From positions 1 to 38,313 of the IMG/VR virus record IMGVR_UViG_3300024262_000102: a stretch of DNA of 38,313 bases, one strand, 5' to 3'. Shown here piece after piece: positions 3,089-36,232 of this stretch. Source of the DNA: a virus. A model generated the notes under the pieces. It made no database searches, was not told the origin of the DNA, and saw only the letters and a list, made by a program, of their open reading frames with translations. The position numbers and the translations under genes were made by a program. Position 1 is the stretch's first letter; every line of letters begins with the position of its first letter.

Positions 3089-5479
3089 TTAAACACTTAA
3101 AATTTGAATAAAACCGTTCTCGTCAAGAGCGACCTCTTTAAGAATACTATTAGTTTCTTGTCGCAGTATAATGCCTCGACCAGCGATTGATTTATCTAAG
3201 CTAGTATCACTACTACCCAAGTGATTTGTAGCTAAAAGATTAGCATTAGAGTCACTGTTATCGTAAGAACCATGATATTGAATAAACTTTACTATTACAT
3301 TTTCACCAGCGATATTAAACATTCCACTTGGAAAGTTAATAAACCTACCATCAATGCTAAAGGCTGGGTAAGAATAAACTTGACCAGTATTAATGTCTAA
3401 TGCCAACATAGTCTCAGGATTAGGTAAGAAGTTTGTTATCTCAAATTGAGTCTTATTCAAATCACCTGAAAATTGGAAAACCTGCTGTTCTTTATACCCT
3501 GTAACCGCTTGGTCTAATTCTTCTGCATAAAATAGTGCAATTGCTTCTAATGACCTATCGATTGCACTACTAGTAATTCTCAATCTTAGGTCATATTCCC
3601 AGCCACTAATAGTCATCGCAGGACCAATGCCTACTTGAGCACTCCATATTGTTCCGTTATATCCGACAGAATCATAGTTGACATTTGTTCTCCAACTGAT
3701 TTTATTAGAACCGTCAGTAGATGCTAAATAATCTGTATCAACCTCAACAACAAACCAGTAATCTCCTTCAGTAAGTATCTTTCCAGAGTCATTTGAGTAA
3801 TCAAAATCACCAATTGCTATGCCTGCAACTGGCTCAAATGCACTTGAATATAATATCTCAGTTCCAGGTGCTGTACCAGAGCCATTATCGTTTAATATAT
3901 TTGCCCTTAGGTTACCTAAAGGAGCACCTAATTTATTTAACTTGGCTAATACTGCAGTTACCTTTGCTTTTTCACCAGCCAGAATACTGAATTTAATACC
4001 TATTTGTTCATGTGTTGCATCAAATGTAATACTACCAGTTTCTGTTATATCTGATAATAGAGAGATAGAGATAGGATCATCCATTTCGACCCTCTCGTTT
4101 CCTGTAGCGCCGAGAGAAATCATTTTGGATGATTGTCCAAGTCTTTCCATAGTGATTGTCTGATAATTCGTTCCATCTAATGCAACTTCAACAGTTGCTG
4201 CTTCGTCTAGTGTGGCATCATCTAACCACTTAGTGTGAAGCTCTATAGCTTTTACCTCTACATTCTCTGCTAAGAATTGAGCATCAAATAGATTCTTGCT
4301 TAAGAGTATATCTCCAATATTTTCAAAATTATATACACCATTTGGAATATCATATGTTGCAGTTGAGGATACATCTATTAGGCTATCTTCATCTGTAGAG
4401 AATACTATAGGTGTTACATATTCCCAGTAAGAGCTAATAAGTCTATCTTCTACTCTGTATGTGAAGACACTTGCATCACCTGCGCCGCCACCAGAACCAC
4501 CACCAACTCCAAGCTGCTTAATATTAACTTGAGCAATATCTTCAACAGCAGTCACACTAGTAGCACTGTCATTCTGAACAACAACTTGACCAAGTTGTAA
4601 TCCATTACCAAAAGCAGCTTTCTGTGCATTAGCAAGAACTGCATCACTATCAGTAGCACCAATGATCAGCAGCTGACCATTGATTGTGTTATCTGCATTT
4701 ACAGTTGATGCTAATAGTGTAACCGAGTAGTAATAATACTCGTCAGCTTTTGCAGTAAAATCAAATAGAGTAAAATCTATTCCTAATGGAGTAGTACCAT
4801 CACTTTCATATATACTACCAGTACTGAAGTCTATCTCAGCACCATTAAAGCTTAATACCAAGTTTTTAATAGCTTGACTAAGTATTGTTCCATCTAGTTT
4901 AGTTATATCTGCACTAGTTACAGTTACTCGTTTTTTATTAGTTAAGTGTTCTCTTAATTGCAGTTGTCCAAAATATCTATTTATCTCTGCTAAAGCCCCA
5001 TCTAATTCTAGTAACTCACCATCTTTTAAAGTAAATGCGTTACCTATGTTTATTTCATTATTGGTTCTTCTAGCTATAATGAAGATATTATCTGTTAATG
5101 TTAGTGCGCTTATAAGGCCTACACTAACTGTAAGTATATTAGCACCAGTTCCAGTTCTTGTTAATTGAACATAAGCAACTTGACCATCAGCGGTAAGACT
5201 TATACTCTGTGCACTTATTGTATTTCTTTGGTCTTCAAGACTAGGTATCTGGATATAAGCATCAGCGGATAAGGATAGGGTTGTCGTAGCTAAATCCCAC
5301 TCCCAAGTTCCACCTTTTATCATCTTAAGACTTCTATCTTGAGCACTACTTGTTGAACTTGAACCGACGCTACTATCAATTAAGCCTAGTATACTATCTA
5401 ATGTCGCATCTGTGCCTGAACCAATATTGCTCAATGCCGCTCTATTTCTCGACTGTCGCGTGTCTATCAAGGTGGGCAT
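3089..5479 (-). CDS. Large tail fibre / baseplate-periphery protein
   Basis: A 796-aa soluble protein between the 1034-aa and 729-aa fibre proteins. AGGGAG lies before the ATG. Residues ~80-150 contain a module (GQVAYVQLTR ... DNIFIIARR ... LKDGELLEL) that resembles one in the 1034-aa neighbour (DKVAYFSVNR ... ENIFIFAYR ... WDGVELAEG). A Gly/Ser linker GVGGGSGGGAG near residue 330 separates an N-terminal half from a beta-rich C-terminal half. The latter contains a jelly-roll-like stretch (EKAKVTAVLAKLNKLG ... GDYWFVVEVD) resembling extracellular sandwich domains. The C-terminus is beta-rich, with no intramolecular chaperone signature that I recognise. Probably a virion fibre subunit. I cannot tell whether it is proximal or distal. 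Confidence 0.7.
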   Translation of the reverse strand: MPTLIDTRQSRNRAALSNIGSGTDATLDSILGLIDSSVGSSSTSSAQDRSLKMIKGGTWEWDLATTTLSLSADAYIQIPSLEDQRNTISAQSISLTADGQVAYVQLTRTGTGANILTVSVGLISALTLTDNIFIIARRTNNEINIGNAFTLKDGELLELDGALAEINRYFGQLQLREHLTNKKRVTVTSADITKLDGTILSQAIKNLVLSFNGAEIDFSTGSIYESDGTTPLGIDFTLFDFTAKADEYYYYSVTLLASTVNADNTINGQLLIIGATDSDAVLANAQKAAFGNGLQLGQVVVQNDSATSVTAVEDIAQVNIKQLGVGGGSGGGAGDASVFTYRVEDRLISSYWEYVTPIVFSTDEDSLIDVSSTATYDIPNGVYNFENIGDILLSKNLFDAQFLAENVEVKAIELHTKWLDDATLDEAATVEVALDGTNYQTITMERLGQSSKMISLGATGNERVEMDDPISISLLSDITETGSITFDATHEQIGIKFSILAGEKAKVTAVLAKLNKLGAPLGNLRANILNDNGSGTAPGTEILYSSAFEPVAGIAIGDFDYSNDSGKILTEGDYWFVVEVDTDYLASTDGSNKISWRTNVNYDSVGYNGTIWSAQVGIGPAMTISGWEYDLRLRITSSAIDRSLEAIALFYAEELDQAVTGYKEQQVFQFSGDLNKTQFEITNFLPNPETMLALDINTGQVYSYPAFSIDGRFINFPSGMFNIAGENVIVKFIQYHGSYDNSDSNANLLATNHLGSSDTSLDKSIAGRGIILRQETNSILKEVALDENGFIQILSV

Positions 5480-22514: not shown

Positions 22515-24394
22515 TAATCTGGATCCATGTATGTTTTAGTCCAAGTGTTATGATTATTTAGTTCCTGGTCTATTCCTATTTTTTTTGCATCTTGATCTAT
22601 TGTTCCATCACTATTAGCAAATAACGGAGCACCATCATCTCCTGTTATAATACCCCTTACAAAGTTAACAGAGGTAGTAAAGCTTCTAGTACCATTACTA
22701 TTCACAACAAAAGAATGAGAGATATTTTCAACATGCATTAATAAATATGCTTTTTTACTTTTTATTTGATCTAAAGTCATGTTTTCAGCATAACCAGCAA
22801 CTTTAGCATCAACTATTAAATTATCTCCAACTTGAATATATCCATCTTGACCCATAAAAGTTATAGAACCGTTTAACATTCTATGAACATCAAAATACCA
22901 TTCTTTAAAAATATATTTCCATTGAGTAATTTGAGTTACATCTCTTGGTGGTGTATTTTTTATATTGTTTTTATCTCTATTTAGATTCTTAAGCACTCTA
23001 ACATATTTACCTGCTTCTTTTATCTCTATATCTTCTTTCTTCTTTTTCTTTTTTATTGAATCTGCTATAGACTGAACAACTGTGTTTGGTAAGAATCTAG
23101 ATTTAGCGATAAAAGGACGCAATCCTTCTCGTGAAAAACTATCTTCATCATAAAATTGAGCATTTAATCTAACGAGGGATCCAACATTATCTTTAAAGCT
23201 TGGATCATTAACTTTAACTTCTATAAAGTTAATTTTATCTGCCCAATTAGTGCCACCATTAAAGGATAGCACTTCCTTTAATGGTATTTCTATTCTACGT
23301 AGATTCTTATACTCAGATATGAATTCTTCAAGTCTATCTACTGATGCAGGATTCTTATCTCCTACTTTTATATTATTAGCAGTGAGATTATTCCTATCAA
23401 TAATAAAAGGACGTATTCTCTTATACAGTGCCAATTTAGGTTTATCGTCTTCCCATCTAAGGTCACATATGATTTCATTTAAAATTGGATTTGTTATAGA
23501 AAGAATAACAGACCACATATTATTTTGATTAAGTATATCTTCACCATGTATTATTCCAAAAGAGTCTAGAAATCCATCATAGCTATCATCTAACGGCTGT
23601 GCATTATTTATTTTATTTAAAGATCCATGATATATATGAAGTAAGTCAGCTATACTATCAGTTGACCTACCCTTTTCATCCGTAAAGCCAAAGTAATTCT
23701 TAACCTCTTGTGGAATTTTAAAATTAACCTCTGGTTTAACTTTAAAATCAAATCCTTTTATTTCTATGTCAGTTTTGCCCCACATTGCTAATAGTACTTT
23801 TATATTGTTATATGTAGAAGCAGAAAGAACACCTCTATTTAATTGCCCTTTATTTGCTTGATTGTAAATAAGTTGTGAAACATATCCAAGAGGTGTATCA
23901 TTATTTTTCGCATCTTGTGCCATAGCAGGATCAACTAGCAGATTTGAATTAAATATTGAACCCCAATCAACACCAGTGACTATATATTCAGTCACTCTTG
24001 CTCCGCTAGTTTGATCTACATTAACACTTACTCTAACAGAATCTATTCTACCAAAGAATTTAACTTTATTTTTATCTGCCTTAGCATTTATATCATCTGA
24101 ATCTACATCTGCTCTTTTTAACTTATCCCTAGCCATAAGTATAACACACCAACTTCCTGGTGTTAGTAATTGTACCCAATTTTTTGTAGGTGCAAGCTTA
24201 ATTTCAAAAGTTCCACTTGGAGCAGATTTTGTTTTATTAGTTGATATACTCTTTAATGATAATGTACTTATTATCTGTTGATCTACTTTTTGTGCATCGT
24301 GAGTTGTGCGTTTACTACCCATTCTATCTGAATAATTCCAAACTAAAAAAGCAGCATGTGGCGTTATTATAGAAAAGTTATTTGCATCTACCAA
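22514..24394 (-). CDS. Baseplate hub protein (gp27/gpD-like)
   Basis: 626 aa. The start is TTG at 24394, preceded by GGTGGAGG with a six-base spacer; it overlaps the tape-measure stop (TTGGTAG), and no ATG lies near. N-terminal strands (GTFEIKLAPTKNWVQLLTPG, WCVILMARD, VKFFGRIDSVRVSVNVD, TEYIVTGVDW) match the first tube-like domain of hub proteins, where 'aPsxnWxxxlxPGdwv' is typical. The middle is mixed. A Lys-rich coil (IKKKKKKEDIEIKE) lies near residue 445. The C-terminus (YLLMHVENISHSFVVNSNGT followed by FTTSVNFVRG) resembles the closing strands of gpD-type hubs. Order tape measure, hub, spike is standard. Predicted to form the trimeric hub joining the tube to the spike. Confidence 0.78.
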   Translation of the reverse strand: MVDANNFSIITPHAAFLVWNYSDRMGSKRTTHDAQKVDQQIISTLSLKSISTNKTKSAPSGTFEIKLAPTKNWVQLLTPGSWCVILMARDKLKRADVDSDDINAKADKNKVKFFGRIDSVRVSVNVDQTSGARVTEYIVTGVDWGSIFNSNLLVDPAMAQDAKNNDTPLGYVSQLIYNQANKGQLNRGVLSASTYNNIKVLLAMWGKTDIEIKGFDFKVKPEVNFKIPQEVKNYFGFTDEKGRSTDSIADLLHIYHGSLNKINNAQPLDDSYDGFLDSFGIIHGEDILNQNNMWSVILSITNPILNEIICDLRWEDDKPKLALYKRIRPFIIDRNNLTANNIKVGDKNPASVDRLEEFISEYKNLRRIEIPLKEVLSFNGGTNWADKINFIEVKVNDPSFKDNVGSLVRLNAQFYDEDSFSREGLRPFIAKSRFLPNTVVQSIADSIKKKKKKEDIEIKEAGKYVRVLKNLNRDKNNIKNTPPRDVTQITQWKYIFKEWYFDVHRMLNGSITFMGQDGYIQVGDNLIVDAKVAGYAENMTLDQIKSKKAYLLMHVENISHSFVVNSNGTRSFTTSVNFVRGIITGDDGAPLFANSDGTIDQDAKKIGIDQELNNHNTWTKTYMDPD

Positions 24395-27366
24395 AGATAA
24401 CCTCCACCAGGTTTATGTTCCATAGTTTTATTTACTTGTTTGCTTAATTGATCATCAGTTAATGGTTTAGAACTTAATGAATTCATCTTATCAACTGCTT
24501 CTCCAAAATTAGCAACAGATTTAACAAAATCTTCCTTAATGGATGACCCAAATATCTTAGCGGCTGCCGCTAAATCTTTACTTGGATCAATTAAAGATCC
24601 AGGTGCTTGCTGTCTACCTGATTCTTGTTCTCTTTGCTCTTGAGTTTTATCAACTGCAGCATTTGATGTTTTTTCCATAAATTCAGCATTAAACGGCATC
24701 ATCTCTTCTTTAATCCAAGATTGCTTTAATGCTTTTTTTCTTTCTTTTTCATTATACATCATTAAGCCTGGATTAGTTTCATATTGACCACTAGACCAGG
24801 AGTCAAACATTGCTCCTTTACCAAAACCTGTAATATCAAGCCATGTTTGTTCACCTTCTTTAGCTTCTTTAAGTTCTCTGGCGCTCTGCACAGCTTGCTT
24901 TCTTTGTTGACCAGATCTCTTCCCATCAATAGATAAATCTCCTATTTTAGAAGGTTTTTTATTTCCAAGGAATCTAAGCAACACTTCTCCTTGCACATCT
25001 TCATCTGCAGCCCTAGATAAAAAATCTCTAGCACCAACGGTATCTCCCATGTATTTAAGGAAGTCATCTCTTGAATTAATGTTTACATCACCTTTAGCAA
25101 TTTTATTAACCTTTTCTCTATCTGCTGATGTAATGCTATTACCGATTAATCCCATTATTCTATTTGCAACTGTTTGTTTCTTTGATGTAATAACACCACT
25201 TAATGCATCTTCTTCACCAATTAGTGCTCCGAGTCCAACATTCTTTAAAGATTCAGCTGCTTTCTTATATGAATCTGTATCTTGCTTACCACTCAAAACC
25301 TCTTGCATTGCTGCCATCATAGGTGTGCCAGATTTTTCTAAAAGAAGCTTACCAGCATAACCTATTTTTAACCCCTTTGTTGCTTCTGTAATACCAGCTA
25401 ATTCTTGCAATGAATAAATATCAGTTCCACCTCTTGATAGTAAGTTGTCAATTTTACCCATAGAGGTTGCTGCAACCTTCATTCGCTGGCTTTGAGTCAT
25501 GAGCGAGTCTGCACCAAAATCAGCTGCTCTAGTTAAGGTTTGACCAATACCAGCTGTAGCCATTATCCCTATTCCAGCACCTTTCTCAGCTAAAGATGAT
25601 GTTGCAGATACCATTCTACTAATATTTTTAGAATCATCCATACCAATGGTGACAGCTGATTTCATTGTGTTATATAGATCTTGATTACTGCCGCCAATAT
25701 CTGTATATTGACCCAACATTTGCATAAACTGCTCAGAAGATGCTATTCCTGCTTTTTCTACTAAAGCTGCGGATTCAATTGAATCAGCAACAAAATCACG
25801 ACCACCAATAGTTTTACCACCTATACTAGCTAACATTGCAGCTTTTGTAGGAGATACTCCAAGTGGAGCGACTTTAGATAATAATGAATCGTCTTCAAAA
25901 TTAGTAAGTATATCCATTACATCATTATTGGCTCCAAAACCTGTTCCAACAGTATATGATCTACGATATTGATTTTCACGTTCTTGCATTTGTGTTGCTT
26001 TTATCGTATTCGTTGCTTCAAATAATGATTTGTACCTATCTCTTGCTGTTGCTGAAATATCACCTGCTGTAATATTTTTCCACCAGTCTCTGGTAACACC
26101 ATATGCATTTGCTCCACTAGCCATAACATCGCCAGCAACATTTAAAGCAACTGCTCCGCCGCCAATTCCACCACCAACTGTAGCACCTGCTGCTATTTTT
26201 CCACCTGCTAATATAGCATCACCAGCAAAATCAAGACCAGCACTAGTAGCTTTAGTGCCCATCATGAAACTACCACGACTTAAAAAGTCATCAGCAAATT
26301 TCTTACTAGAGTCATACATACCCATTGTTTTTATCAGTGACATTTGATCGCCTTCTGTCATTGACCTCATTGTCGAGTATTGCTCATTTTGCATCCGCAT
26401 AAAACGTTCTTGATTGTTCATTAATCTAAGCGGTTGATCTATTCGTACATTTCCATACCCAGAACTAAAAGAACCAAACATCTTAGATATATCTTTAAGT
26501 GCAGTACCAATCATGTCCCACTTACCACCACCCTTATTGGAGATATCATAGCGATCTTGCTGTGTGTCAAATTCTGATTGAGCTTGCTTTAAATTTTTCT
26601 CTTTTTCTTCTCTTTCTTTACCAGTAGCATTAGATAACTCACTTACTGCTTTATTTAAAGCATTCATTTTTTTAGTTAATTCTGTATACTCACTTGCTAT
26701 ACTGCCAATCTTTCCTTTTAAGGATTCTGATTTCATGCTTTCACTAGTTTTTTGTTTTTCATAACCACTTATAGATGATGTAGCTCTTTCTAACATAGAT
26801 ATAGGATCTATTCCTTGTTTTTTTTGAAAATGCATTGTTAATTCATTTTGTGCTATACTCTTTTCTAAATTTGAAGCGTTTAATATCTTTTTTTCAAGCA
26901 TTTGTTTATTTGTTACTTGACCAGTTTCTGGATCAATCAAGTCTTGCATTTGATTAATCACACTACCTAATCCACTTCTTTGATTTTCTATTGTTCTTTC
27001 TAAGCCATAAGAAGAGCTACCTATATTAGAATAAGCTGCAGTTCTTATTGTTGGAGATTCTTTTTTGTAAAAACTGAGTCTAGATGATAAAGCTTCTTCT
27101 TTTGATGCAGATAATATAGAACCAGATAATGTTTTACCAGCACCCATTTTTCTCTGAGTTGCTATACTTTGCATTTCTAAAGATTTTGTATTTATATCAT
27201 TAGCTAAATCACTTAATTCATCTTCTTCTGCTTCATGTATATTTTCTTTTAAGTATGTATGATCACCAATTTTTTGTTCTATTATATTCTTTAAACTTAA
27301 TTCTTTCTGCGATCTTTGAGAAGTTCTTAACTGATATCTTTTAAGTGCTTCTAAAAAAGTAGCCAT
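24388..27366 (-). CDS. Tail tape measure protein
   Basis: 992 aa, placed between the tail-assembly chaperones and the hub as expected. SD is GAGG five bases before ATG. The N-terminal ~300 residues are long charged helices with coiled-coil character (IASEYTELTKKMNALNKAVS, GKEREEKEKNLKQAQ). Residues ~375-425 form a Gly/Ala-rich hydrophobic stretch (AGGKIAAGATVGGGIGGGAV) that could interact with membrane during DNA ejection. The rest is helical and soluble. Tape measures fix tail length at roughly 0.15 nm per residue in characterised phages, which would predict a tail of about 150 nm; this is inference. The chaperone frameshift product upstream would coat it during assembly. No peptidoglycan hydrolase domain is evident. 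Confidence 0.85.
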   Translation of the reverse strand: MATFLEALKRYQLRTSQRSQKELSLKNIIEQKIGDHTYLKENIHEAEEDELSDLANDINTKSLEMQSIATQRKMGAGKTLSGSILSASKEEALSSRLSFYKKESPTIRTAAYSNIGSSSYGLERTIENQRSGLGSVINQMQDLIDPETGQVTNKQMLEKKILNASNLEKSIAQNELTMHFQKKQGIDPISMLERATSSISGYEKQKTSESMKSESLKGKIGSIASEYTELTKKMNALNKAVSELSNATGKEREEKEKNLKQAQSEFDTQQDRYDISNKGGGKWDMIGTALKDISKMFGSFSSGYGNVRIDQPLRLMNNQERFMRMQNEQYSTMRSMTEGDQMSLIKTMGMYDSSKKFADDFLSRGSFMMGTKATSAGLDFAGDAILAGGKIAAGATVGGGIGGGAVALNVAGDVMASGANAYGVTRDWWKNITAGDISATARDRYKSLFEATNTIKATQMQERENQYRRSYTVGTGFGANNDVMDILTNFEDDSLLSKVAPLGVSPTKAAMLASIGGKTIGGRDFVADSIESAALVEKAGIASSEQFMQMLGQYTDIGGSNQDLYNTMKSAVTIGMDDSKNISRMVSATSSLAEKGAGIGIMATAGIGQTLTRAADFGADSLMTQSQRMKVAATSMGKIDNLLSRGGTDIYSLQELAGITEATKGLKIGYAGKLLLEKSGTPMMAAMQEVLSGKQDTDSYKKAAESLKNVGLGALIGEEDALSGVITSKKQTVANRIMGLIGNSITSADREKVNKIAKGDVNINSRDDFLKYMGDTVGARDFLSRAADEDVQGEVLLRFLGNKKPSKIGDLSIDGKRSGQQRKQAVQSARELKEAKEGEQTWLDITGFGKGAMFDSWSSGQYETNPGLMMYNEKERKKALKQSWIKEEMMPFNAEFMEKTSNAAVDKTQEQREQESGRQQAPGSLIDPSKDLAAAAKIFGSSIKEDFVKSVANFGEAVDKMNSLSSKPLTDDQLSKQVNKTMEHKPGGGYLW

Positions 27367-27379
27367 AATAACCTCAATA

Positions 27380-27820
27380 TTACTCTATATCAAGTGAGCC
27401 AATGCTAATATCCTCACCAAAATCTTCACCATGCAGTTCTTTTTCTTTTTTGATCTGCTCTTTCATCCAAGTTTCTTCTTCTTGCTTTTTCTTAATCTCA
27501 GCAAGCTCTCTAGCTTCTTCTTGCTCTGCCCAATCAATCGAGGCTTTTTCTTTTTCCTCTTCTATTCTATCATATTCTTCTTCAGCCTTGCTTTCAACTG
27601 CTTTTTCACGCTCGACTTTATCAGCATATTCATAATATAATTCTTCAACAGTATATGTATCTAAAATAGGATCCTTCAGTGGTCTAGAATAGTACTTACT
27701 CCACCAGCTTCTTAAAAATAAAGTAAGATCTGCGTCTGAAGCAGCCTCAGAATTAGCTCTCTCTTTTGTAATAATGTCAATATACTGTATAGCGGAGAAA
27801 AGATCATTGTCTTCCCCCAT
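27380..27820 (-). CDS. Tail assembly chaperone, second part (gpT-like), likely also made as a -1 frameshift fusion
   Basis: 146 aa. The N-terminal ~60 residues (LFLRSWWSKYYSRPLKDPIL followed by DTYTVEELYYEYAD) are typical of second tail-assembly chaperone frames in large myoviruses. The C-terminal half is a highly charged Glu/Lys helix (KAEEEYDRIEEEKEK ... KKQEEETWMKEQIKKEKE). The frame is exactly -1 to the preceding 124-aa gene, and the ATG lies two codons after its slippery site, so the reading frame is continuous with the shifted frame. GAGGGA could also serve as SD for independent initiation. Both products are plausible. In known phages the fused product recruits tube subunits to the tape measure. 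Confidence 0.85.
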   Translation of the reverse strand: MGEDNDLFSAIQYIDIITKERANSEAASDADLTLFLRSWWSKYYSRPLKDPILDTYTVEELYYEYADKVEREKAVESKAEEEYDRIEEEKEKASIDWAEQEEARELAEIKKKQEEETWMKEQIKKEKELHGEDFGEDISIGSLDIE

Positions 27821-27832
27821 TATTAGTTTCCC
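27795..27832 (-). promoter_or_regulatory. Programmed -1 frameshift signal (GGGAAAC slippery heptamer plus hairpin)
   Basis: At 27832-27826 the minus strand reads G GGA AAC in the zero frame, a canonical X-XXY-YYZ heptamer one base different from lambda's GGGAAAG, directly before the TAA at 27825-27823. Slipping back one base gives GGG AAA CTA ATA ATG GGG, which enters the 146-aa frame without a stop. Seven bases after the heptamer, 27818-27810 (GGGGGAAGA) can pair with 27803-27795 (TCTTTTCTC) around a six-base loop, with some G-U pairs. This is the position of a stimulatory hairpin. The predicted fusion is about 272 aa (124 zero-frame codons, two linker codons, then 146). Confidence 0.8.
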
Positions 27833-28197
27833 TCTTTAATTTCTCCAGATTTAGCTTTTAATTCTTCACGCCACTCTTCTTCTTGATCCATAACCTTATC
27901 AAAAAGAGTAACTATGATATTCTCATCTTGAATACTATTGCCATCACCACTTTGTTTCCACCACTCAGGACCGTCTTTTATTCTTACTTTTAGATTAGCA
28001 AGAATTGTAGTTAATGCTATTAAATCAGAGGTTGGATTTAATACATCGGTTCTAAGTCTTGACTTTTCAATCTCTAAGATTCTTTTCTCTAGCATGTTTA
28101 AAACACATTTTACTGTAAAGGTTCCATCATACTCTTTACCATACAATTCACCTTTCTCTTTAAATTGAAATGTTCTTTCGTTCTTAGGAAGATCCAT
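27823..28197 (-). CDS. Tail assembly chaperone, first part (gpG-like)
   Basis: 124 aa with SD AAGGAG and ATG. Sequence features are a beta-rich N-terminus (GKEYDGTFTVKCVLNML), a central helical segment (SDLIALTTILANLKVRIKDG followed by PEWW), and an acidic C-terminus. This layout, the 'GPEWW' motif and its position just upstream of a second chaperone frame and the tape measure are typical of first-frame tail-assembly chaperones of myoviruses. It ends on the slippery heptamer GGGAAAC and TAA, so part of the ribosomes should shift -1 into the 146-aa frame. Not expected in the mature virion. Confidence 0.85.
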   Translation of the reverse strand: MDLPKNERTFQFKEKGELYGKEYDGTFTVKCVLNMLEKRILEIEKSRLRTDVLNPTSDLIALTTILANLKVRIKDGPEWWKQSGDGNSIQDENIIVTLFDKVMDQEEEWREELKAKSGEIKEGN

Positions 28198-28260: not shown

Positions 28261-28821
28261 TTATCTTATTGGTGTAGTTGATTCTGTATTTGGATCTGTA
28301 ACAGGTATTGGTTTTCTATCATCTTTCCAACCGATTGCTCGCCAGTTTAACATAATTTTACCTAATTGCTCGGAATTAAGTGATTCTGATCTTGTTGTAA
28401 TCATTGCCTTATTAGTAAAAAACAATAAATTATCTGACTGTGAATCTCTAACTTCTATAGTTATATATTTTTGCTGTAAGAAATTTAGTACATCAGATTG
28501 TATTAGTTCATTTGAAGGTCCCATACCTGGAATCATAATACCACTAAATGTTCCTGTTACTGCAACATGTCTTGGTGCTAATTCAGCAGGAAGATAATCG
28601 TCGATAACTCTTAATTCCGATACAGTTGTTTCTATATTCCAAGAAACACCCATAGCAAAACCAACTATCTTATCATTTATCCTTAATACAGTTCTAGCAC
28701 CAGATGCATATTTAGCAACTGGTTTAATCGATATTAGGCTATCGATATTAGACGTTAGATTTGACGCTAATGGTATCTCGATAAACGAGCTAGTATCAAT
28801 TTTATTAGAACCAACTGACAT
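28261..28821 (-). CDS. Third tube-fold tail protein
   Basis: 186 aa with SD AGAGGAT before the ATG. After ~40 variable residues come a tube-like strand order: RTVLRINDKIVGFAMGVSWN, then HVAVTGTFSGIMIPG, then YITIEVRDSQSDNLLFFTNK and a final LNSEQLGKIMLNWRAIGW. This parallels the strand pattern of the two preceding tube paralogues ('IxIAYA...VSY', 'Y.V.GSLSVIRY', 'CRxTS...'), but the similarity is weaker. It could be a tube initiator or terminator (T4 gp54/gp3-like), or a minor tube subunit at the baseplate end. Its place between the tube pair and the chaperones fits. Confidence 0.6.
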   Translation of the reverse strand: MSVGSNKIDTSSFIEIPLASNLTSNIDSLISIKPVAKYASGARTVLRINDKIVGFAMGVSWNIETTVSELRVIDDYLPAELAPRHVAVTGTFSGIMIPGMGPSNELIQSDVLNFLQQKYITIEVRDSQSDNLLFFTNKAMITTRSESLNSEQLGKIMLNWRAIGWKDDRKPIPVTDPNTESTTPIR

Positions 28822-28830
28822 ACTATCCTC

Positions 28831-29427
28831 TTATTTAAGATGTTGACCAAGGCCAGAAAAATCAGATATAAATGAATCCTCATCTACATATAATGCTCTA
28901 AAATTAAAAGCTTGCATTGCAGGAGATTTATTACTGAGATTGAAGTTGGCACTAGTTATCCTACAATCTCTTATTCTAGCAATAGTGTGAGTGTCATTGC
29001 CATTACCATACTTCTGATGTATTTCTATTTCAAATCCAGTTGCTTTCTCTAGCATCTTAGGATTTAGATTATCGTAGACTCTACCATCTGCCTTAGATAC
29101 GTCTAATTTTACTCCAGCTTTAATGCGTTCTACAACACCCTCTGGACCCCAAGCACCAATACCATTCCCAGTATCTTTGACTTCTATTCCATTAAGACCG
29201 CCACTATCTGCAACTATTCCTGCTGTATATCTTATTAATGAAAAAGATCCGTTAACGGCATATGAGAGAGGTTCAACAGAACTTCCCTCATACATGCCAA
29301 GTAACGTAGGTGCAGCATGATTGACAGTGACTGTGTAAGATATATTGGTGCAAAATGCAATAGTCCTATGATTTATCTTGATCTTTGCATTTGCACCAGT
29401 AAGAAAGAATGTCTTTTGATTAGCCAT
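28831..29427 (-). CDS. Tail tube protein paralogue 2
   Basis: 198 aa, clearly homologous to the preceding 181-aa protein. Both begin with FLTGANAKIKI, share 'TIA[YF]xxxxSYxVxV', 'MGxYE / LGMYE', '[YA]xVxGS[LF]S[VL]IRYTA' and a GNGIG(K/A)W block, and end with a '[CR]xTSxxxxxNK' and 'FNAI/FRAL' strand. SD TAGGAT precedes the ATG. The extra ~17 residues are in the central loop. Either it is a second major tube subunit or a tube-end specialist. It lies 16 bases after its paralogue, so both are probably on one mRNA. Confidence 0.75.
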   Translation of the reverse strand: MANQKTFFLTGANAKIKINHRTIAFCTNISYTVTVNHAAPTLLGMYEGSSVEPLSYAVNGSFSLIRYTAGIVADSGGLNGIEVKDTGNGIGAWGPEGVVERIKAGVKLDVSKADGRVYDNLNPKMLEKATGFEIEIHQKYGNGNDTHTIARIRDCRITSANFNLSNKSPAMQAFNFRALYVDEDSFISDFSGLGQHLK

Positions 29428-29443
29428 CCATCAATCCTATTGA

Positions 29444-29989
29444 TTATTCAGCTAAGTCTGTTCCTGATCCACCTGATCTAGCAACAGTAAAGCTATCATC
29501 TTGTGCTAAGATAGCATTAAATGAATACTGCTCAGTTAAAACACCACGCTTGTTAACTGATCCACCTTTACTTGTAAAACGACAATCAATTAACTTAACT
29601 GCAGCTCCATGCTCAGATGTCATAACCTCACCATCGTTCTCTTTTTGAAATACTTGAAGATCAAATGTTTCAGAGAGAAGAAGTTGCTGTGGATTAAATT
29701 GTTGATCACCAGTTTGACTACCAACAGTATTCCATTTACCAATACCATTACCTTCTGCAGCAGCGCCTGCTCCAGTTGCAGCAGCTGTGTATCGAATAAC
29801 ACTCAAGCTACCTTCTACAGTATAAGCAATTGGTTCATGAGCGATAACTTCATAACGACCCATTACTTCAATAGGTATTGTACTAACATTTACTCTATAA
29901 GAGACATCTTGTGCATAAGCGATAGTGATAGATCCAATCTTGATCTTCGCATTAGCACCTGTTAAAAATGATGGTCTTTGTCCTGACAT
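29444..29989 (-). CDS. Tail tube protein
   Basis: 181 aa with strong SD AAGGAG before ATG. It has the tube pattern in myoviruses: an N-terminal 'ANAKIKIGSITIAYAQDVSY' strand pair, a 'EPIAYTVEGSLSVIRYTA' hairpin and a C-terminal 'LIDCRFTSKGGSVNKRG' strand. It follows the tail sheath gene after a terminator and new promoter, as expected for a highly expressed inner tube subunit of the contractile tail. The Ala/Gly-rich stretch TAAATGAGAAAEGNGIG is a flexible loop. Tube rings stack inside the sheath around the tape measure. The 198-aa gene next door is a paralogue. Confidence 0.78.
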   Translation of the reverse strand: MSGQRPSFLTGANAKIKIGSITIAYAQDVSYRVNVSTIPIEVMGRYEVIAHEPIAYTVEGSLSVIRYTAAATGAGAAAEGNGIGKWNTVGSQTGDQQFNPQQLLLSETFDLQVFQKENDGEVMTSEHGAAVKLIDCRFTSKGGSVNKRGVLTEQYSFNAILAQDDSFTVARSGGSGTDLAE

Positions 29990-30138: not shown

Positions 30139-32319
30139 TTAAGCCGCGCTAGAAACTCTACTAACTGTAATATCAGCAAGAACGAAATCAATACCTTCAA
30201 CAAGTTTAGCAGTAAAGCTAATTCTAATAAGATTACCATCGATAAGAACTGTTAAGTCCTTAAAACCGTTTGGTGCATCATCAGAAGAAACTGTAATACC
30301 CTGTGCAAGATATGTAGAAAGGATACTCTGACAAACAGATTTAACTTCACCAGCAGTAATAACGTTCTTAACACCTACATAAATACTCTCAACTTGATTT
30401 CTAAAATCGTAAGCAAGAATATCAGCAGCATATTGAACATTAGCTCTATTTCGTACCCAGTTTCCATCTTTATTATACGTTGTGTTATCAACAACAACTC
30501 TAAATCCACCAGACTGAGGATTTTCTAAGAATGTTATGCCACTCTTGATTGCATCTTCGTAGTCTGTTCTTGGATCAAAATCTGCCAAGATATCTTCTTC
30601 ATCAGTGCTCATTGGTTGGGCTGTATGACGAATACCAGAGCAGTTCATGAACTTAAATGTAAGGGGTGTACCAACTGGAGAACCAGCTCTTGCACCAGTT
30701 ACATAAGCAGCAAGTGACCAAGGTTGGAACCACTTGATATTTCCAAGTGAATCATTATTTCTTGTATCTTGAACAACAAGTTGAATTCTATAATCAGCAA
30801 GATCAGCAGATTTAAGTTTGCAATCTTCCCAAGACGCTTTGTAAGAAAGAACAGATTGTCTCTCTGACTTGGCCTTAGTTGTTGCAGTCAAAGATAAGTG
30901 AGTCTTGATTGCCTGATGTATAGCATCGATTGTATATGTAGATGCGGGATCTGTTAGTGAATCAGAAATGTCATCAGCTGCATCGCGAGAGAAAAGAGGA
31001 AGAACGAAGTTCATTCTTACACCTTCAAATTTCGCAAGAGCATTGATTATCTCTGCACCAGTTGTTGCACCAAGTGCACCACCAGCAAGAAGTACTTCAG
31101 CTAATGCACCAGGAAGACCTGCTGTTGCCATTGCAACTGTACCATCAACTAAACTACAAAGCTGAGCTTCTTCAAAGAATGCCCTAACTTCATAAGCATC
31201 TTTCTTTATCATCGCAGGATATTCACCTGCTTCAGAAAGAGCTTTAATATCTACATGATCAAGTACTTCTGGATTCAATGAAGAATAAAGAGCACTTGAT
31301 ATTTTAACACTCCACCCTGTAACAAGATTCATATCATCGATCATTATACCGATACTACTGTAAGCTGATTTACTAAAAGTAGCAACTGCAACAGCATTCT
31401 CTTTTAGAATAACACTAGTTGCATCAATTACAATACTAGCACTTGTAAGACCAGTCTTAGAGCAACCAGCCATAAGAGTTATGTTACCACCAACTGTATC
31501 TGATTCTACAAGAAGATCTCTCTTCTGATTTAACTTAATTGTTACAGCAGATTGAACACTTGAACCAGTAATAGCAGGTACAAGTCCAACTTTAGCAAGT
31601 GATACGCCAACATCAGCATCATAAAGTTCTATTGATTTGCCATAACCTTTCTTATAAGCATTAGCATCTGCATCATATGTAAATACGATAGCATCACCAG
31701 AAGCAGCAACTGAAACACCAGTTAGTGCAGCATCAATGAGTGCAGCAACCTTAATAGCATCATCAAATTCTGTAAGCAAGCCAGTAAAAAGATCAAGACT
31801 TGTTTTTACACCATCAATGTAAACATCAAACTGAACATTAGCAAGTAACGCAAAGTCTGGAATATCTATACCAGTTACAATTGGTGCAACTTCAGGAATA
31901 GCTATTGCAGAGTAAGCGATTCTATTACCACCGATACCGTACTCAGCTGCAAGGACTTTTCCATAATCATCAGCTAAATTAAGCCAAGCTCTAACAGAAG
32001 CATTTGTCTTCCATATATAAATAGCTTGTGCTCCAGATGGAATTGCACCATCAGAAGCAGGTGCAAACAACATAGCAGCTGAATCAACTATATTACCTTG
32101 TCCATACTTTTCTCTTATGGCAATCATCTGATCAGGTGTGTAAACATTGAGTCCAATATCTACTTCATCTTTACTGGGTTTACCAGTGGTTGATTCTCCA
32201 ATAATACCGACAATCCCGGTTTGACCAAGAGGAAATGCTCCTCCAAGGTCTATCGACAGCTTTGAATACGCTCCAGGCTTGTAGATTGTGGCTCCATTAT
32301 AACTAACATTAATCGCCAT
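30139..32319 (-). CDS. Tail sheath protein
   Basis: 726 aa with SD AGGAGA before ATG. The N-terminus (YNGATIYKPGAYSKLSIDLG, TGIVGIIGESTTGKP) and the C-terminal half (KWFQPWSLAAYVTGARAGSP, TFKFMNCSGIRH, GFRVVVDNTTYNKDGNWVRN, DILAYDFRNQVESIYVGVKN, followed by the final ISFTAKLVEGIDFVLADITV) are typical of contractile tail sheaths. The C-terminal domain holds the subtilisin-like core and the interlocking arm that joins sheath rings. Length is close to T4 gp18 (659 aa). The region ~150-330 (VDIKALSEAG region excluded) is an inserted protuberance domain on the outer surface. It contracts to drive the tube through the envelope. Own promoter candidate upstream, strong terminator downstream. Confidence 0.93.
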   Translation of the reverse strand: MAINVSYNGATIYKPGAYSKLSIDLGGAFPLGQTGIVGIIGESTTGKPSKDEVDIGLNVYTPDQMIAIREKYGQGNIVDSAAMLFAPASDGAIPSGAQAIYIWKTNASVRAWLNLADDYGKVLAAEYGIGGNRIAYSAIAIPEVAPIVTGIDIPDFALLANVQFDVYIDGVKTSLDLFTGLLTEFDDAIKVAALIDAALTGVSVAASGDAIVFTYDADANAYKKGYGKSIELYDADVGVSLAKVGLVPAITGSSVQSAVTIKLNQKRDLLVESDTVGGNITLMAGCSKTGLTSASIVIDATSVILKENAVAVATFSKSAYSSIGIMIDDMNLVTGWSVKISSALYSSLNPEVLDHVDIKALSEAGEYPAMIKKDAYEVRAFFEEAQLCSLVDGTVAMATAGLPGALAEVLLAGGALGATTGAEIINALAKFEGVRMNFVLPLFSRDAADDISDSLTDPASTYTIDAIHQAIKTHLSLTATTKAKSERQSVLSYKASWEDCKLKSADLADYRIQLVVQDTRNNDSLGNIKWFQPWSLAAYVTGARAGSPVGTPLTFKFMNCSGIRHTAQPMSTDEEDILADFDPRTDYEDAIKSGITFLENPQSGGFRVVVDNTTYNKDGNWVRNRANVQYAADILAYDFRNQVESIYVGVKNVITAGEVKSVCQSILSTYLAQGITVSSDDAPNGFKDLTVLIDGNLIRISFTAKLVEGIDFVLADITVSRVSSAA

Positions 32320-33347: not shown

Positions 33348-34058
33348 TTATATAGCCTTCTCATACTGAGTTATTACACTCTGTATTATGTCTTGTACCT
33401 GTTGTTGCAGGTCATTGTTTATCTCTTTAAGGATATCGCTCATATCTCCACTTTTACCAGGGTGTACCCATTGTGTATTGGCATCTTGCTTGCTAGTAAC
33501 AGTTCTGAACTGTGTATTTGAGTATACGTGGTTCTTTTGTATATCATCTTTATGTTTGCTTCGTTGCTTGCCATACATACCTATAAAGGTTTCTCCTTTA
33601 TCACTTGGATCTCTTTTTTTATGACCCCTTAATTCTTTCATCTCATGTCTTGCTCTATTAAGATCACCCATTGCTTTCTGCGTTGTTAAACCTGGTGTGC
33701 CCTTACCAGAGAGTGGTATAACTTTATATCTAGAACCATCTTTTGCTATCTTAGCGTTTTTTAGCAGCTTCGGTAGCATAGGGAACGGAGGAGTTGAGAA
33801 GTCTGTCTTTCCTGAATCCGTCGTTATGTTATACGAATCTCCTATCCTAACAGCTGTTAATTCATTCATGAAATCTTCTAATCTATAATCTTCTCCAGCC
33901 TCATGAGCTCTCTGCATTGCAAAATCTAAGACATCATATATCTCTGATCTTATTGTCTGGTCTATTTCCTCACTTATACCATTGATGAAATCATCAGGAA
34001 CACCTTTCATGGCATACAAGTTCCTTAATCTATTTATTTCATCGCTTATCGTTAACAT
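33348..34058 (-). CDS. Tail completion / neck protein candidate (gp10-like)
   Basis: 236 aa. ATG overlaps the preceding stop (TAATG). The N-terminal ~60 residues are helical (DQTIRSEIYDVLDFAMQRAH); the middle contains PPFPMLPKLLKNAKIAKDGS and KVIPLSGKG, and the C-terminus has NTQWVHPGKSGD followed by a terminal amphipathic helix. The 'W-V-HPG' motif near the C-terminus after a beta strand is typical of head-tail joining/tail-completion proteins of the HK97 gp10 type. Position before a tail-terminator-like gene agrees. Probably acts at the head-tail interface. Confidence 0.62.
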   Translation of the reverse strand: MLTISDEINRLRNLYAMKGVPDDFINGISEEIDQTIRSEIYDVLDFAMQRAHEAGEDYRLEDFMNELTAVRIGDSYNITTDSGKTDFSTPPFPMLPKLLKNAKIAKDGSRYKVIPLSGKGTPGLTTQKAMGDLNRARHEMKELRGHKKRDPSDKGETFIGMYGKQRSKHKDDIQKNHVYSNTQFRTVTSKQDANTQWVHPGKSGDMSDILKEINNDLQQQVQDIIQSVITQYEKAI

Positions 34059-35590
34059 TACTTGTTCTTTATTACTTTAGCTCTCATGTCATTTAAGAAA
34101 TTCTCTCTATCCATTGCTGTCCACTCTTCACCAAATGTTATCTTTATTCTTCCACTTGGCTCTATAGTAACACTTGGTTTTGGCATATAAAAATAATGCT
34201 CATCATGTACATTATCACTATTAGCAGGATTAGATGAGTAAGCTTCAACAGCTGTAGGTGCTCGTTCCATTTCATCTATCTTTCTCTGTAGTTCTAATAA
34301 CTTATGCTCTAATTCATCTATCTCTGATCCAGCATCACCACATAATTTATTGTGTTGCTCTATGAAATTATGATGATGTTGCTCTAGTTTATCAAATAAT
34401 TTCATAACCTTGGACTCAACGACCATAAGATCAACTGCATTATCGTGCCTTATCTCTGATCTTATATTCTCCATCTCTCTATATATATTAGCTAGGTTGT
34501 GTTTGCGATAGTTGTCGACCAACGTCTCCATTCCACCCTCAATAATATCATCATCTAGATCATCATCTTCTAATAGCATCAACTCAGGCTCATCTTCAGG
34601 TAGATACCACTCAAATACACTCATAAGCTCAACAGATAGCTGAGGAAGTGACTTGTTGGTAAATTGATGGATCATCTTTCCACCCTGATTTATTCGACCA
34701 GAATAAATATCGTTCATGTGCTTACGTATGCTTACTTTATAGTCATCGAACATAACATCTTTAAAGTCTTCATCAACCATACCAGCAACAGCATTTCTTA
34801 GCATTCTAAATGTGCCATTACCAACGAGCTTAAGAGCTTCCCCGTGAGATACATCGAATGTAGCGCCCTTACCGTCTGCACCACGAAGTATATTCTTCTC
34901 TAGTTTTTCTAAAGCAACCATCTCTCTTAATGACTTCTTTTTTCTAAGATGACTCTCAAGATACAGCTTTATCCCTTGAAGCGAACACGATCTCATATCC
35001 TGATCTGCAGCAACATGAGCATCCATCCACTCAAAGTCTTTCATCTCACCATCATTACTCTTTGGTTTTCCACTATAATCAGTAACAAGGAATGTCTTTG
35101 AGTCGTTGCCCCAATGCCTGAATGCACCGAGTTCTATCGCATTGTTGGCAGTGATACCAGCTTCTTCATACAGCTCACGTTTGGCACCCTCTTCAAAGGT
35201 CTCACCTGGATCAATGTGTCCACCAGGTGTTGCCAGCTTATCACTGTGACTATCCTTACCAATAAGAATCTGTCCTTTCTCATTAACAACAACACAGCCT
35301 GCACCGCGGCCGTTATAATACTGCTCAAAACTCTTTCTCATCTTAGCTTTACGCTTCTTTCTGTCTAATCTTTTCTGTTGAACCTTAGCCTTATCTTTCT
35401 TCTTAGCGCCAGCTCCCCAAGTTCCACCCCTATCATTGTCTTTGCTTTCAGGTAATCCTTCTTGACTTGATCCAGCATACTTACCGGCTACACTTTTTGG
35501 TGGATTACCTCTAGGATGATCTTTAACATTCTTACCGTGTAGAATGGCCATCATAAAGCGCATTTGCTTTTTAGAAACTGCTTGTGGCAT
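34058..35590 (-). CDS. Nudix-domain fusion protein in the neck operon
   Basis: 510 aa with SD GGAG before ATG. Residues 1-90 are basic (KKKDKAKVQQKRLDRKKRKA). Residues ~95-220 form a Nudix hydrolase domain with a perfect GX5EX7REUXEEXGU box: G124, E130, R138, E139, E142, E143, G145, I146. All metal-binding glutamates are present, so it should hydrolyse a nucleoside diphosphate linked to another moiety; the substrate cannot be read. Residues ~225-350 are unassigned. Residues ~365-460 are an acidic patch (LLEDDDLDDDIIEGG) and long coiled coil (EIDELEHKLLELQRKIDEME). The C-terminus is a short beta/alpha unit (GRIKITFGEEW). Gene order suggests a link with the neck or head, but it could be an enzyme unrelated to the particle. 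Confidence 0.8.
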   Translation of the reverse strand: MPQAVSKKQMRFMMAILHGKNVKDHPRGNPPKSVAGKYAGSSQEGLPESKDNDRGGTWGAGAKKKDKAKVQQKRLDRKKRKAKMRKSFEQYYNGRGAGCVVVNEKGQILIGKDSHSDKLATPGGHIDPGETFEEGAKRELYEEAGITANNAIELGAFRHWGNDSKTFLVTDYSGKPKSNDGEMKDFEWMDAHVAADQDMRSCSLQGIKLYLESHLRKKKSLREMVALEKLEKNILRGADGKGATFDVSHGEALKLVGNGTFRMLRNAVAGMVDEDFKDVMFDDYKVSIRKHMNDIYSGRINQGGKMIHQFTNKSLPQLSVELMSVFEWYLPEDEPELMLLEDDDLDDDIIEGGMETLVDNYRKHNLANIYREMENIRSEIRHDNAVDLMVVESKVMKLFDKLEQHHHNFIEQHNKLCGDAGSEIDELEHKLLELQRKIDEMERAPTAVEAYSSNPANSDNVHDEHYFYMPKPSVTIEPSGRIKITFGEEWTAMDRENFLNDMRAKVIKNK

Positions 35591-35593
35591 ATA

Positions 35594-36232
35594 TTACTCC
35601 ATTTCGCTATATCTGTTATTTTTACTTAAATTATCTTTAGCCCACAACGGCTGCAAGTTGCTCAAAGCCCAACTCTTTTTAAACTCTTTATCTTCTGTTG
35701 ATTTATAATTAAACCAACTATCTGGCTTAATGTGATCAATATGCCATCCATATAGTCCGTAATTATCCCAAGACATCCCATCTTGAAATTGATTCTCTAA
35801 GTGATTTATCAAATCATCTGGTGAATAACCTAAACTACTAAAGGTTTTATTATCTTTAGTTAAACCTCTTCTTTTTAATTTTTGATGTAAAAGAGACCTA
35901 ATATTGTGTTTTATCTTTTTTTGCTCTTTTGTATCCCAATTCTTGTAAGTACGTTCTTTCTTAGGTATATCTTTTTGTGCAATCCAATTTGGATCATTAT
36001 ATCTTAATACAGCACTCACACTCATTTTATTACGAACTTCTTTTGATATGACTTTACCTTTATGTACTTTTTTAGCTATAATAATATTAGCGCATTTATG
36101 GCACAATCTATTCCCTTGACCCTTATCTTTATAGCCTCTATCACAACCACAAGAATCACATGTACATTTATATCTAGGTATTTCTCTACCAGATTTTATA
36201 AGAATATATTTACAATCTTGTAAATCAATCAC
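35594..36232 (-). CDS. HNH homing endonuclease
   Basis: 212 aa. The start is GTG, overlapping the previous stop as TAGTG, with AAGGA six bases before. N-terminal cysteines C23, C25, C28, C30, C44, C47 form one or two zinc-finger-like knuckles. Residues ~57-76 (HKGKVISKEVRNKMSVSA) resemble a NUMOD3 DNA-binding motif. The C-terminal HNH domain has W163-H164-I-D166-H167, then N192-L-Q-P-L-W197 and N201 with K204. Residues ~136-150 (YSPDDLINHLENQF) are the helix that usually precedes the HNH fold in such enzymes. This is a free-standing mobile gene of the type common in T-even and SPO1-like genomes. The neighbours look intact, so it is inserted between genes. Confidence 0.88.
   Translation of the reverse strand: MIDLQDCKYILIKSGREIPRYKCTCDSCGCDRGYKDKGQGNRLCHKCANIIIAKKVHKGKVISKEVRNKMSVSAVLRYNDPNWIAQKDIPKKERTYKNWDTKEQKKIKHNIRSLLHQKLKRRGLTKDNKTFSSLGYSPDDLINHLENQFQDGMSWDNYGLYGWHIDHIKPDSWFNYKSTEDKEFKKSWALSNLQPLWAKDNLSKNNRYSEME

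Follow-up and report, generated by a model that had tools for sequence, protein, structure and literature searches.

Tail assembly chaperones linked by a frameshift are already well known from phages lambda, KL1 and Colossus. The slippery site of the lambda gpG/gpGT pair is G GGA AAG. For gp18/gp19 of Burkholderia phage KL1, GGGAAAC is predicted immediately before the TGA, with a possible downstream stem-loop (PMC3483164), and the same heptamer is predicted in the chaperone that precedes the tape measure of Caulobacter phage Colossus (PMC3556154). The mechanism of frameshifting between lambda G and T has been described (PMC5009743). The chaperones of T4-like phages are made without frameshifting, according to the title of Vladimirov, Gautam and Davidson 2022 (cited in PMC12846349).

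The window analyzed here, which covers all 38,313 bases of its virus record, carries a gene pair that resembles the lambda pair in the order tube, G, T and tape measure, in a predicted −1 shift toward the 3′ end of the G gene and in an XXXYYYZ heptamer with a GGGAAA core. In contrast to lambda, Z is C instead of G, the heptamer touches the stop codon and the predicted tail is contractile. The likeness to lambda gpG was drawn by arrangement. KL1 and Colossus also have GGGAAAC in the chaperone before the tape measure, and the KL1 heptamer lies next to the stop codon, as in the window. However, both are siphoviruses, KL1 has a gene between the chaperones and the tape measure, and the likeness to the two likewise concerns the motif and its position.

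The chaperone gene pair and its surroundings

Two open reading frames lie between the tube and tape-measure genes of the window, giving the order tube, gene 1, gene 2 and tape measure. The genes of this region are as follows.

24388–27366, minus strand: probable tape measure protein of 992 aa, directly downstream of the pair, assigned from position and length
27380–27835, minus strand: gene 2, T domain in the −1 frame, assigned from the open −1 frame and a core conserved in relatives
27823–28197, minus strand: gene 1, gpG-like tail assembly chaperone of 124 aa ending in KEGN-TAA, assigned from position, weak PHROG matches and fold
28261–28821, minus strand: tail-tube-like protein upstream of gene 1, used as the query for relatives, with its role assigned from its position after the sheath and from its paralogues
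30139–32319, minus strand: tail sheath protein (phrog_279 tail sheath, E 8.5e-32)

The sheath gene indicates that the uncultured window phage is contractile-tailed, and the window also encodes a baseplate J-like protein and a collar-domain protein. The sheath is related to those of SPO1-like phages. Gene 1 has weak matches to PHROG tail assembly chaperones, and a Pfam search with it gave no match. Its AlphaFold model, built from 43 relatives, has a pLDDT of 91. A comparison of this model with BFVD retrieved, among others, a Bacillus phage JL protein annotated as a tail assembly chaperone (E 5.3e-4, TM 0.62), while a fold search of the PDB returned nothing significant. By sequence or fold, gene 1 is predicted to be a tail assembly chaperone. 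The likeness to JL and similar large Gram-positive myophages concerns the predicted chaperone fold, and the JL protein is longer. Gene 2 spans 27380–27820 (minus strand) when counted from its ATG. Its core, WWxKxYxRPLKDPLL, is strongly conserved among relatives, and no family match was common to more than one member. The 992-aa probable tape measure had no family match. An Rfam search gave no match.

The closest cultured relative found, via the sheath and gene 1, is Myxococcus phage Mx1 (OR576727), which has a homologous sheath (29.7%), a gene 1 match at E 3.5e-20 and a gene 2 in the −1 frame. It differs in that it has no slippery heptamer, its gene 2 GTG being preceded by AAGGAG beside the gene 1 stop, and in that its chaperones are not beside the sheath. 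A tube match at 138.8 kb of Mx1 was rejected as a marker of the chaperones, which lie at 74.3–75.3 kb. The Mx1 loci (L140, L144 and L138) are scattered, with the sheath at 39 kb, the chaperones at 74 kb and the baseplate at 130 kb, while the window module is compact.

Three further observations concern the structural genes of the window. Three tandem tube-like genes occupy 28261–29989 (minus strand); the upstream two are 33% identical and the third is weakly similar. A 510-aa open reading frame in the head–tail region (34058–35590, minus strand) contains a NUDIX domain (PF00293, E 1.6e-19) with long flanks. An open reading frame with a GTG start among the structural genes (35594–36232, minus strand) has an HNH-like HIDHIKP stretch, recognized by eye, and is possibly a homing endonuclease; a Pfam search with it gave no match.

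The slippery junction and its conservation

The minus strand at the junction of the two genes reads ...AAA GAG GGA AAC TAA TAATGGGGGAAGAC... and contains the following features.

27826–27832, minus strand: slippery heptamer GGGAAAC in the phase G GGA AAC, adjoining the gene 1 stop and conserved in relatives
27823–27825, minus strand: TAA stop of gene 1, abutting the heptamer, as in 23 of the 38 slippery-site loci described below
27789–27823, minus strand: putative stimulatory hairpin (main stem 27793–27819) with a spacer of 6–7 nt, matching the position in relatives
27818–27834, minus strand: possible stand-alone start of gene 2, consisting of GAGG, 10 nt and ATG (27818–27820), not conserved in relatives

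The in-phase GGGAAAC that the original prediction had placed right before the TAA of the first chaperone is found at 27826–27832 (minus strand), within GAG GGA AAC TAA. Reading the sequence also bears out a −1 frame, GGG AAA CTA ATA ATG GGG GAA, that meets no stop on its way through CTA ATA to the ATG of gene 2. From 27826 downward, this frame adds 148 aa to gene 1 and yields a 272-aa fusion. A TAA just upstream closes the −1 frame, so that a productive shift is possible across about four codons, the heptamer among them. In 24 window genes, with 11,988 codon junctions in total, GGGAAA is in phase once, at 27826–27832, and XXXYYYZ 67 times (0.56%). Transcriptional slippage at the junction was set aside, there being no long homopolymer.

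To collect relatives, viral contigs were scanned with alignments of the tube protein and gene 1, giving more than 130 loci and one genome contig, which were reduced to 76 distinct gene pairs encoding relatives of both genes. A search of deposited phage genomes by DNA and by tube protein found no close relative. One locus, L139, lies on a contig of 5 kb from a Bacteroidales MAG; this contig has the module of the window phage with CCCAAAC and is probably of phage origin, having been binned together with the MAG. The exact −1 relation between the two genes, claimed for the window and true there, is kept in 75 of the 76 distinct pairs. The alignment of related phages, which had been proposed as a check on the heptamer, revealed an in-phase slippery site at the end of gene 1 in 38 of the 76 loci: GGGAAAC in 20, GGGAAAA in 10, CCCAAAC in three, GGGGGAR in three, and GGGAAAT and AAACCCT in one each. 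The GGGGGAR and AAACCCT motifs are less secure as slippery sites; GGGGGAA is listed among the slippery motifs of annotated phage frameshifts (PMC10885494).

These 38 loci fall into 22 clusters (gene 1, 70% identity), and their gene overlaps contain 42 XXXYYYZ motifs in phase versus two and two in the other phases. Since the class was defined by the motif, a fairer figure is the count over the last 10 junctions of gene 1 in all 76 loci, where GGGAAA is in phase in 31 and in the other phases in one and none. The background expectation for an in-phase GGGAAA near the end of gene 1 is about 0.2% per locus. No ATG, GTG or TTG lies at least 20 codons before the gene 2 core in 31 of the 38 slippery-site loci, leaving frameshifting as the only evident route to the start of the T domain there. 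The nearest relatives of the window on the tree (L002, L003 and L006) all carry GGGAAAC, and none has a gene 2 start with a usable Shine–Dalgarno sequence before the conserved part.

A hairpin beginning seven bases downstream of the heptamer had also been proposed. At tail chaperone frameshifts of the gpG/gpGT type, stimulatory structures of this kind are common without being essential. A stem is indeed predicted 6–7 nt past the heptamer (−8.6 kcal/mol). By itself, this stem does not reach significance (z −0.65, with 46 of 200 shuffles folding as well). Against synonymous recoding, it is among the weakest of the family (z −0.74). Over the slippery-site loci, the 50 nt downstream have a mean z of −3.0 relative to dinucleotide shuffles; for the loci that lack the site, the mean past the stop is −0.94. 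Because some of the stem bases also specify conserved amino acids (in many loci Gly-Glu and Leu-Ser), synonymous codons were resampled in the −1 frame. For the 38 loci this gave a mean z of −2.55, with p < 0.05 in 24 and a combined p of 2e-28, which is only indicative because related loci are not independent. The hairpins of the slippery-site relatives are stronger than protein coding demands. They arise at about the same place from sequences that differ by subgroup, such as GGAGAGC/GCTCTCC and GCCGAC/GTCGGC; L011 and L080 have no adjacent strong hairpin. A consensus fold of ten hairpins has double changes in two pairs only. With so few covarying pairs, the argument for the hairpin rests on the shuffling and synonymous-recoding tests.

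Expression of gene 2 in the window

Frameshifting is the best explanation for the window, because the frame, the site and the hairpin position are conserved in relatives that have no other route. The gene 2 product is very probably made by a −1 programmed frameshift at GGGAAAC, with the two genes forming a chaperone pair of the gpG/gpGT type. The original prediction of such a frameshift is thereby reinforced by the conserved −1 relation (75/76), the 38 slippery sites, the loci among them that lack a start (31/38) and the hairpins (mean z −2.55). Counting against it are the weak hairpin of the window, its own ATG with a fair Shine–Dalgarno sequence and 37 relatives without a slippery site.

In the proposed mechanism, most ribosomes would end at the TAA of gene 1 and release the 124-aa short chaperone. 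In a minority, the tRNA-Gly and tRNA-Asn on GGA AAC would slip back by one base to GGG AAA. The hairpin 6–7 nt downstream probably slows the slipping ribosomes, which would then read CTA ATA ATG and produce the 272-aa fusion with the T domain. The phase, the open −1 frame, the hairpin position and the conservation are read from the sequence, whereas the occurrence of slippage and its efficiency are inferred. By analogy with lambda, the short form may coat the tape measure and the fusion may recruit tube subunits. The standard tandem-slippage model also predicts the residues at the junction. Since AAC would be decoded as Asn before the tandem slippage, the main junction is expected to be KEGN-LIMGED. 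The KEGK-LI-MGED form that had been proposed would instead be the minor one, and the junction-spanning peptide should be EGNLIMGEDNDLFSAIQYIDIITK, the expected Asn form, with the Lys variant minor.

It is conceivable, and we consider it tentatively, that both routes operate in the window, yielding the short protein, the frameshift fusion and, from the ATG, a certain amount of separate T domain. Such a combination does not conflict with the frameshift explanation, and our confidences in the two overlap. Three products had been suggested on the grounds of a good Shine–Dalgarno sequence for gene 2. The GAGG is ordinary for this genome, with a duplex energy of −6.3 kcal/mol that is as good as in most window genes. 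Both signals are present, and the GAGG overlaps the slippery site. Two relatives, L007 and L073, carry a slippery site together with an in-frame ATG, in another place. However, the start is not conserved, and only the window phage has this ATG after the gene 1 stop. In gene 2 the corresponding Met sits in a linker of variable sequence, and the 10-nt spacing is at the long end. Three products are possible in the window phage alone, with no support from conservation.

An exclusively separate gene 2, translated by restart at the ATG 2 nt downstream of the stop (TAA-TA-ATG) or by binding at the GAGG, with the heptamer incidental, is highly improbable. The duplex at the ATG is typical of the genes of this phage, and the 37 relatives and the distant Mx1, L135 and L137 use or could use separate starts, but this ATG is absent in the relatives that share the slippery site, most of which (31/38) have no start, and the chance of an in-phase GGGAAA is about 0.2% per locus. 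The idea that a sequencing error has split a single continuous gene at the junction can practically be dismissed: indels can yield short two-frame overlaps, but the −1 relation recurs, with either a slippery site or an in-frame start, in 75 of the 76 loci, which come from many metagenomes.

Internal-start relatives and a possible exchange of modes

The slippery site is absent in 37 loci (L012, L022, L058 and 34 more). All 37 carry, within gene 1 and 33–102 nt before its stop, a −1-frame ATG that in most cases has a Shine–Dalgarno sequence; the −1 frame is open from this ATG onward. The ATG spans two conserved codons of gene 1 (Glu/Gln-Trp), with the final base of the first joining the Trp codon (typically GA ATG G). 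TGG is preceded by A in all 37 loci, as the class definition dictates, versus 12 of 35 slippery-site loci. The presence of the internal ATG in each −1 pair lacking a slippery site is not dictated by the definition. Shine–Dalgarno pairing at the homologous spot averages −6.8 kcal/mol in the 37 loci versus −2.4 kcal/mol in the slippery-site loci (p 1.7e-10). Hidden in-phase slippery sites were found at five of 1,062 junctions in the 37 loci versus two and four out of phase, with no clear enrichment. The window reads GAG TGG (GTG) at the internal-start spot and its −1 frame is closed there; it is therefore not of the internal-start type.

Related phages with intact genes and no heptamer, named at the outset as evidence that would speak against the frameshift, thus literally exist in these 37 loci. 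The claim for the window nevertheless stands, because they form mainly one clade, of 36 loci, that falls outside the window's group, and all have the ATG at one homologous spot. On a tree built from the tube protein, gene 1 and the gene 2 core, two changes are required to account for the internal-start state, one for this clade and one for L067, which is sister to the slippery-site locus L068 with a support of 100. Placing all internal-start loci in a single clade is rejected, though weakly (AU p 0.029). Separate gene 2 starts are present in the outgroups Mx1, L135 and L137, whose branches are too long to root the tree or to polarize the change. L007 (ATG near 5020, GGGAAAC at 5062–5068) and L073 (GGGAAAC at 4381–4387) have both signals, a moderate Shine–Dalgarno sequence and a hairpin, and are possible intermediates between the two modes.

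Judged from their sequences, slippage and the predicted internal start replace one another across the family. On balance, we favor the view that frameshift fusion and separate T-domain translation have been exchanged within the family, in one direction or the other. Production without frameshifting, as the title on T4-like chaperones states it, resembles that proposed for the internal-start relatives, whereas the family of the window holds frameshift and internal-start versions together. An exchange of the two modes within one homologous family was not found in the literature searched, which is no proof of newness.

For annotation, these findings mean that the two genes should be joined across 27380–28197 by a −1 shift at 27826–27832, instead of listing a separate downstream gene. 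If the exchange of modes is true, some phages would be able to do without the physical gpG–T fusion, and both solutions would be available for direct testing within a single homologous family. The family would provide a natural experiment in which the same two proteins are made by a frameshift or from a separate start, making the need for the fusion and for a fixed short-to-long ratio testable.
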